Assembly (NCBI RefSeq): GCF_030818895.1 | Contig: NZ_JAUTBA010000001.1 | Span: 3,472,001 to 3,536,000, forward strand | Direction: 5' to 3' | Length of the DNA: 64,000 bases | Origin: Sphingobacterium zeae | Lineage (GTDB): Bacteria > Bacteroidota > Bacteroidia > Sphingobacteriales > Sphingobacteriaceae | Position numbers and translations under genes: made by a program | The notes under the pieces: model-generated | The model's input: only the letters and a program-made list of their open reading frames with translations | Told to the model about the DNA's origin: nothing | Databases searched by the model: none | Part shown: in pieces, positions 49,239 to 50,408 of the stretch | How positions within the stretch are numbered: the first letter of the stretch is position 1 | Layout: each line of letters begins with the position of its first letter

Positions 49239-50408
49239 GTGTTTGTCGCTAATCAAACAAAGCAGTTTATCATAATCGCATTAGCAGCTATCATTGTATA
49301 CAGCTGCCGCAAAGGTAAGTCTACACCAGAAGAGCCAATGATTGTCCCTCAACCTGAAGAAACCTTACGCCAACAATATAGTAAATCGGTAACGCAATGG
49401 CCAGCTGCTGCTTGGTACAGCAATATCAAGGTACATGAACTGGCCGCTTTACCCGAAAACCCATCGAAAGATAAGGCCGAGCTAATCGCACTTGGCAAAG
49501 CCTTATTTTTCGACCCCCGCACCGGTAATGGCATGAAGACTTGCGCTTCATGTCATCATCCGGACACCTACTGGATCGACCAAAAAACAACGGCAGATGG
49601 TATCGCACTGCATCACCGCAATACACCTTCCCTAGAAAATGTCTGGTACCTGGAAGGCAAACTCTTCCACGATGGCCGCGCAAAGACTTATCGGGAGCAG
49701 ATTGCCGAAGCCATCAACTCCCCGATCGAAATGGGCGGAAATACGACTGCTTTACCCGCTAAGCTGCAAGCTATACCAGGCTATCTTCGTTTATATGAGG
49801 CGGCTTACTCGAGCCAGACGATGAGCGTCGAAGGATTGCTAGATGCCATAGCAGCGTATTCAAGATCAATTAGCAGTGGTGAAACCGTCTTTGACCGTTT
49901 TATCAAAGGAGATTACCAGGCATTAAACGATGCACAGCTCGAAGGTCTCCATCTGTTTCGCACAAAAGGGAAATGCATCAACTGCCATAATGGTGCCTTC
50001 TTTACTGATCTCGATTTTCATAACCTGGGTTATGCTAATGGTGCCTTCTTTACTGATCTCGATTTTCATAACCTGGGTTATGCTGTTACCAGCAAAGGTG
50101 CCTTGGACAATGGTCGCTTTGAGGCGACAGCACTGGAAACAGACAAAGGTAAATTTCGCACGCCAGGTCTGCGCAATGTGATCCATACTGCACCCTACCT
50201 GCACAATGGTAGTATTTCGAGCTTAAGTGAACTGATCAACCTACTGAGTCAAGGGATGCCCCAAAAGACAGGACAACAGGTAAATGGCACCTTATCGCCA
50301 CATATCCAAAATGTCCGATTAAGTAGTAAAGAACAGGAAAATATCTTGGCTTTTTTGGAGAGTTTATCCAATGTGCCAAGCAAAACAGAGCGACCTGTAT
50401 TACCCTAA
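49239..50408 (+). CDS. Di-heme cytochrome c peroxidase-like lipoprotein (MauG/CcpA family)
   Basis: 389 residues from a GTG. Signal with lipobox IIVYSC. Two heme c sites: CASCH (in MKTCASCHHPDTYWID) and CINCH (in GKCINCHNGAFFTD). Also GLHLFRTKGKC, KFRTPGLRNVIHTAPYLHNGS and the C-terminal LSSKEQENILAFLESL. Family members reduce H2O2 or oxidise protein side chains in the periplasm. An exact 16-residue segment, NGAFFTDLDFHNLGYA, is doubled just after heme site 2. In a heme locus it could oxidise heme or protect against peroxide; its lipid anchor suggests surface exposure or attachment to the membrane. Confidence 0.9.
   Translation: MFVANQTKQFIIIALAAIIVYSCRKGKSTPEEPMIVPQPEETLRQQYSKSVTQWPAAAWYSNIKVHELAALPENPSKDKAELIALGKALFFDPRTGNGMKTCASCHHPDTYWIDQKTTADGIALHHRNTPSLENVWYLEGKLFHDGRAKTYREQIAEAINSPIEMGGNTTALPAKLQAIPGYLRLYEAAYSSQTMSVEGLLDAIAAYSRSISSGETVFDRFIKGDYQALNDAQLEGLHLFRTKGKCINCHNGAFFTDLDFHNLGYANGAFFTDLDFHNLGYAVTSKGALDNGRFEATALETDKGKFRTPGLRNVIHTAPYLHNGSISSLSELINLLSQGMPQKTGQQVNGTLSPHIQNVRLSSKEQENILAFLESLSNVPSKTERPVLP
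49989..50084 (+). repeat. Perfect 48-bp tandem duplication inside the peroxidase gene
   Basis: Bases 49989-50036 and 50037-50084 are identical over 48 bp. It is in frame and doubles NGAFFTDLDFHNLGYA. The absence of any mismatch means a recent event. Confidence 0.97.

Follow-up and report, generated by a model that had tools for sequence, protein, structure and literature searches.

A perfect in-frame 48-bp tandem duplication beside the second heme site of a di-heme peroxidase gene in Sphingobacterium zeae

Does a 48-bp segment that occurs twice, without a mismatch, directly beside a heme site of an otherwise conserved peroxidase gene represent a genuine mutation, and, if so, how did it arise and what would it do to the enzyme? 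This question is raised by a locus in the genome of Sphingobacterium zeae (NCBI RefSeq assembly GCF_030818895.1), located within a 64,000-nucleotide stretch of contig NZ_JAUTBA010000001.1 that is referred to here as the window; coordinates given without a locus label are those of the window.

The gene, its duplicated segment and its neighbours

The affected gene and the elements within it are as follows:

49239-50408 (+): di-heme peroxidase gene (CCP/MauG/MbnH superfamily), an open reading frame (ORF) of 389 aa with a GTG start; PF03150, 1.4e-36
49542-49556 (+): first heme site, CASCH, residues 102-106 (translation, alignment)
49974-49988 (+): second heme site, CINCH, residues 246-250 (translation, alignment)
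49989-50036 (+): copy 1 of the 48-bp unit in codon phase, encoding NGAFFTDLDFHNLGYA, residues 251-266
50037-50084 (+): copy 2 of the unit, identical to copy 1, encoding NGAFFTDLDFHNLGYA, residues 267-282; orthologues are single-copy

A search with Tandem Repeats Finder identified a perfect tandem repeat at 49988-50084, with a period of 48, 2.0 copies, 100% matches and no indels. The array is 97 nt in length, its starting T (49988) recurs past copy 2, and the identical repeat set in codon phase occupies 49989-50084. In the translation, 16 residues are added in frame, NGAFFTDLDFHNLGYA being present twice directly C-terminal of CINCH, the second CXXCH motif. A perfect 48-bp tandem of this kind cannot be explained by chance, and the arrangement is that of a spontaneous in-frame tandem duplication: the copy is exact and adjacent, its length is a multiple of three, and close relatives do not carry the second copy. 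A first-pass annotation of the sequence had described, in a di-heme peroxidase, a perfect in-frame 48-bp duplication adjoining the second heme site; the repeat search and the ORF translation agree with its coordinates and its description, and the duplication starts right after CINCH.

The identity of the enzyme as a di-heme peroxidase, also proposed in that annotation, was borne out by the match to PF03150 (CCP_MauG; 1.4e-36), against which the window protein scored 126.8 bits (gathering threshold, 25.6), and by its two CXXCH heme motifs, CASCH and CINCH, which are characteristic of the superfamily. The protein is assigned neither to MbnH nor to MauG, because its scores lie under the NCBIfam curated cut-offs for the MbnH family (TIGR04039; 189.6 versus 362.85 bits) and for MauG of TTQ biosynthesis (TIGR03791; 165.1 versus 443.85 bits). 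The nearest solved structures are PDB 6e1c (1e-35), a di-heme enzyme that we take to be MbnH, and bacterial cytochrome c peroxidases. Four further members of the superfamily are encoded in the same genome. A YSC lipobox at residues 21-23, read by eye, suggests that the window protein is probably a lipoprotein, and it is best explained as a protein with a predicted periplasmic or surface location. In the alignment of residues about 326-342, the tyrosine that other members of the family have 2 or 3 residues before a conserved glycine close to the C-terminus is leucine or lysine in this orthologue group. In MauG the distal ligand of heme 2 is a tyrosine, and the usual ligand may have been replaced in this group.

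The neighbourhood of the peroxidase gene includes the following genes:

41593-43971 (+): TonB-dependent outer membrane receptor of the heme/siderophore/B12 type, which starts the gene cluster
45671-46459 (+): HmuY-like lipoprotein of the same cluster (PF14064, 7.4e-6, just under the gathering score)
50606-51853 (+): S41-family peptidase gene, a conserved downstream neighbour (PF03572, 6.3e-20)

On the opposite strand of the cluster lies an ABC transporter whose ATPase scores above the threshold set for PRK13548, a heme-transporter model, and the order of the neighbours matches in three related loci (L036, L037 and L039). This gene context suggests a peroxidase role tied to heme uptake; a literature search on di-heme peroxidases linked to heme uptake returned nothing relevant. 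Past the cluster, a stretch of about 3.5 kb shares 99.4% identity with S. multivorum NCTC 11343 (L039). In addition, the interval that separates the S41 peptidase gene from the next conserved gene contains a MACPF/perforin-domain gene and a gene for a Pom-type outer membrane protein (51950-54430, minus strand), and this segment of roughly 2.8 kb is absent at the corresponding junction in L035-L039.

Age and mechanism of the duplication

Only one copy of the segment was found in every intact orthologue aligned (about 55-91% protein identity). When a single-copy query was compared with 94 genomes of the genus, matches were obtained in 69; among the matches listed, the repeat interrupted the alignment of the window's own gene alone, and no second relative with the duplication was found. 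Copy number is therefore one in all other species and two in a single genome of this species, both states being in frame, and on these comparisons the duplication is private to this assembly. The expectation of the first-pass annotation that homologues would have one copy each thus held among the intact orthologues aligned and the matches listed in the 94 genomes. Its claim of a recent origin is also supported: at one position both copies read T (in ACTGATC) and the aligned relatives read C, A or G, and the duplication is therefore later than that substitution. Taken together, the sequence evidence indicates that the duplication is probably real and recent.

With respect to mechanism, slippage or recombination had been proposed. 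The ends of the duplication have only 1 nt in common, which makes homologous recombination between repeats unlikely; recombination between pre-existing repeats was rejected on this ground, and of the two proposals it is replication slippage that fits better. An inverted repeat is located near the junction:

50019-50034 (+): perfect inverted repeat CATAACC-TG-GGTTATG (7-bp arms), ending 1-2 nt before the duplication junction
50067-50082 (+): second occurrence of this inverted repeat, in copy 2

Several single-copy relatives also have the inverted repeat, and its fold as single-stranded DNA is weak (about -2.7 kcal/mol). About 2.5% of the sampled positions lie equally near the foot of a comparable hairpin, which, with two endpoints, corresponds to a coincidence of about 1 in 20, and a role for this hairpin in stalling and slippage at the breakpoint is only suggestive. 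The segment would have been doubled within the peroxidase gene on a single recent occasion, by slippage or a template switch as the DNA was replicated, and the duplication is regarded as mechanistically ordinary.

Consequences for the enzyme and competing explanations

Since 48 is a multiple of three, the reading frame is unbroken, and the encoded 389-aa product retains all of the heme-site residues. A tandem copy leaves all native residues in the chain, such that the native position could be taken by a single copy or by a combination of the two, and the other 16 residues would be expected to loop out between the second CXXCH and FHNxG. The spacer between these two motifs is 9 residues in most of 83 family proteins from the fetched loci (near-identical orthologues included), 10, 12 or 16 in others and 29-38 in longer di-heme proteins of the same set, and it is about 20 in PDB 6e1c by alignment; in the duplicated window protein it is 25 up to the second FHNLG, within the natural range of 9 to 38. 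A folded protein with a bulge is therefore favoured, given that spacer length varies naturally and that the native residues are all retained. AlphaFold models of the duplicated protein (mean pLDDT 53.6) and of the single-copy S. siyangense orthologue L037 (mean pLDDT 58.0), both below 50 around the site, were built with only 10 sequences and are poor, such that loop placement is not readable from them. The reading that we favour, and hold to be reasonably likely, is that a real and recent slippage event produced a private allele encoding a folded enzyme with a 16-residue bulge near heme 2; activity would most likely be unchanged to reduced, and the allele could revert through loss of one copy.

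A second reading, less likely but serious, is that the duplication is genuine but inactivates the enzyme, as a step towards the loss of a dispensable gene. The insert adjoins the heme-2 histidine, and the duplicated segment includes the invariant residues G, F, T, D, H and G beside heme 2, which makes damage plausible; the genome, moreover, holds the four other superfamily members noted above. The gene is broken in two related species: in one orthologue (L008, genome G022) the heme-2 half has been lost through an internal deletion, and another (L070, genome G097) is interrupted by a stop codon and a frameshift and also has an altered conserved histidine. Loss of the gene can thus occur, and a duplication that is neutral or harmful is a realistic alternative. 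Against this, the window gene retains its frame, its two CXXCH motifs and its remaining conserved residues, length at this site varies naturally, and dN/dS is low (about 0.07-0.2) among the intact orthologues, indicating purifying selection in the clade.

An assembly or contig-joining artefact, in which an uncollapsed 48-bp overlap was written twice, is unlikely. An untrimmed join would likewise give perfect identity and a 1-nt overlap at the ends; however, the genome is a single contig, the ORFs neighbouring the duplication are intact, and perfect 48-bp tandems are not produced by ordinary read errors. Furthermore, the genome was sampled in stretches that came to 864 kb in a first set and 1.2 Mb in a second, roughly 2.06 Mb or 37% of the total; in this sample the 48-bp repeat was the sole perfect two-copy tandem of at least 16 bp, and the 864 kb contained no further perfect tandem of that length or longer, whatever its copy number. 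With no comparable duplication in this sample of about 2.06 Mb, the notion that duplications are widespread in the assembly was rejected. The 1.2-Mb sample contains one other perfect tandem of at least 16 bp, a 24-bp array of about 3.6 copies (L182, 7405-7490). By contrast, the related NCTC 11343 assembly of S. multivorum has single-base frameshifts in both this gene and a neighbouring one: its peroxidase orthologue (L039, 5001-6107) contains three 1-base insertions, and 1-base gaps disrupt a nearby gene (L039, about 9060-9890) whose counterparts in the window, L036 and L037 are intact. Because this second gene is affected as well, the frameshifts in NCTC 11343 are judged to be probable base-level assembly or sequencing errors.

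A gain of function, in which the extra FHNLGY would supply an added histidine and tyrosine by heme 2 as a new axial ligand or electron path, is conceivable because the usual distal tyrosine is leucine or lysine in this orthologue group, but is considered highly improbable.

Phase variation and comparison with known systems

The first-pass annotation also raised the possibility of a phase-variable switch, that is, reversible alternation between one and two copies that alters enzyme activity. Tandem copies of 48 bp can be lost again, and the capsule genes of Streptococcus pneumoniae undergo phase variation through duplications inside an ORF (Waite et al. 2001, 2003, cited in PMC4022640). However, the one- and two-copy states of the peroxidase gene are both in frame, with no on/off effect on translation, two or more copies occur in no relative among the intact orthologues aligned and the matches listed in the 94 genus genomes, and there is no conserved repeat to favour renewed duplication. 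The switch was therefore not supported, and a phase-variable array was rejected as the main reading: the repeat is in frame, consists of two copies only rather than a multi-copy array, and shows no copy-number variation among species. We consider this explanation very unlikely. The duplication is best regarded as a mutation that is probably genuine but of a rather ordinary kind, neither a switch nor a new system. If real, it represents a clean natural case in which an otherwise conserved enzyme has newly acquired an in-frame tandem duplication next to its cofactor, and for which the single-copy orthologues provide a ready control on how enzymes tolerate repeated segments.

Two documented cases of duplication within genes are comparable. 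In the S. pneumoniae capsule ORFs, spontaneous duplications lead to capsule loss and phase variation (Waite et al. 2001, 2003, cited in PMC4022640). The likeness lies in spontaneous tandem duplication inside a gene; the capsule duplications abolish expression, whereas the window peroxidase keeps its frame and no alternation is seen among genomes. In the KPC-44 beta-lactamase, a loop contains a 15-residue tandem duplication, and such in-frame duplications are well documented in KPC (PMC13321812). These loops resemble the present case in the exact in-frame doubling of adjacent nucleotides, in its similar size and in the resulting longer enzyme loop, although the KPC variants are tied to drug selection and to known changes in activity, whereas the window peroxidase is known from sequence alone. 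Because the frame is kept, the window case is closer to KPC than to the pneumococcal capsule.

As an enzyme, the window protein resembles di-heme enzymes of the MbnH family (PDB 6e1c, TIGR04039) in its two CXXCH sites, its conserved motifs and its longer spacer past the second CXXCH. It differs from them in its score below the family cut-off (189.6 versus 362.85), in its neighbours of the heme-uptake type, and in a spacer that has been lengthened by exact repetition.
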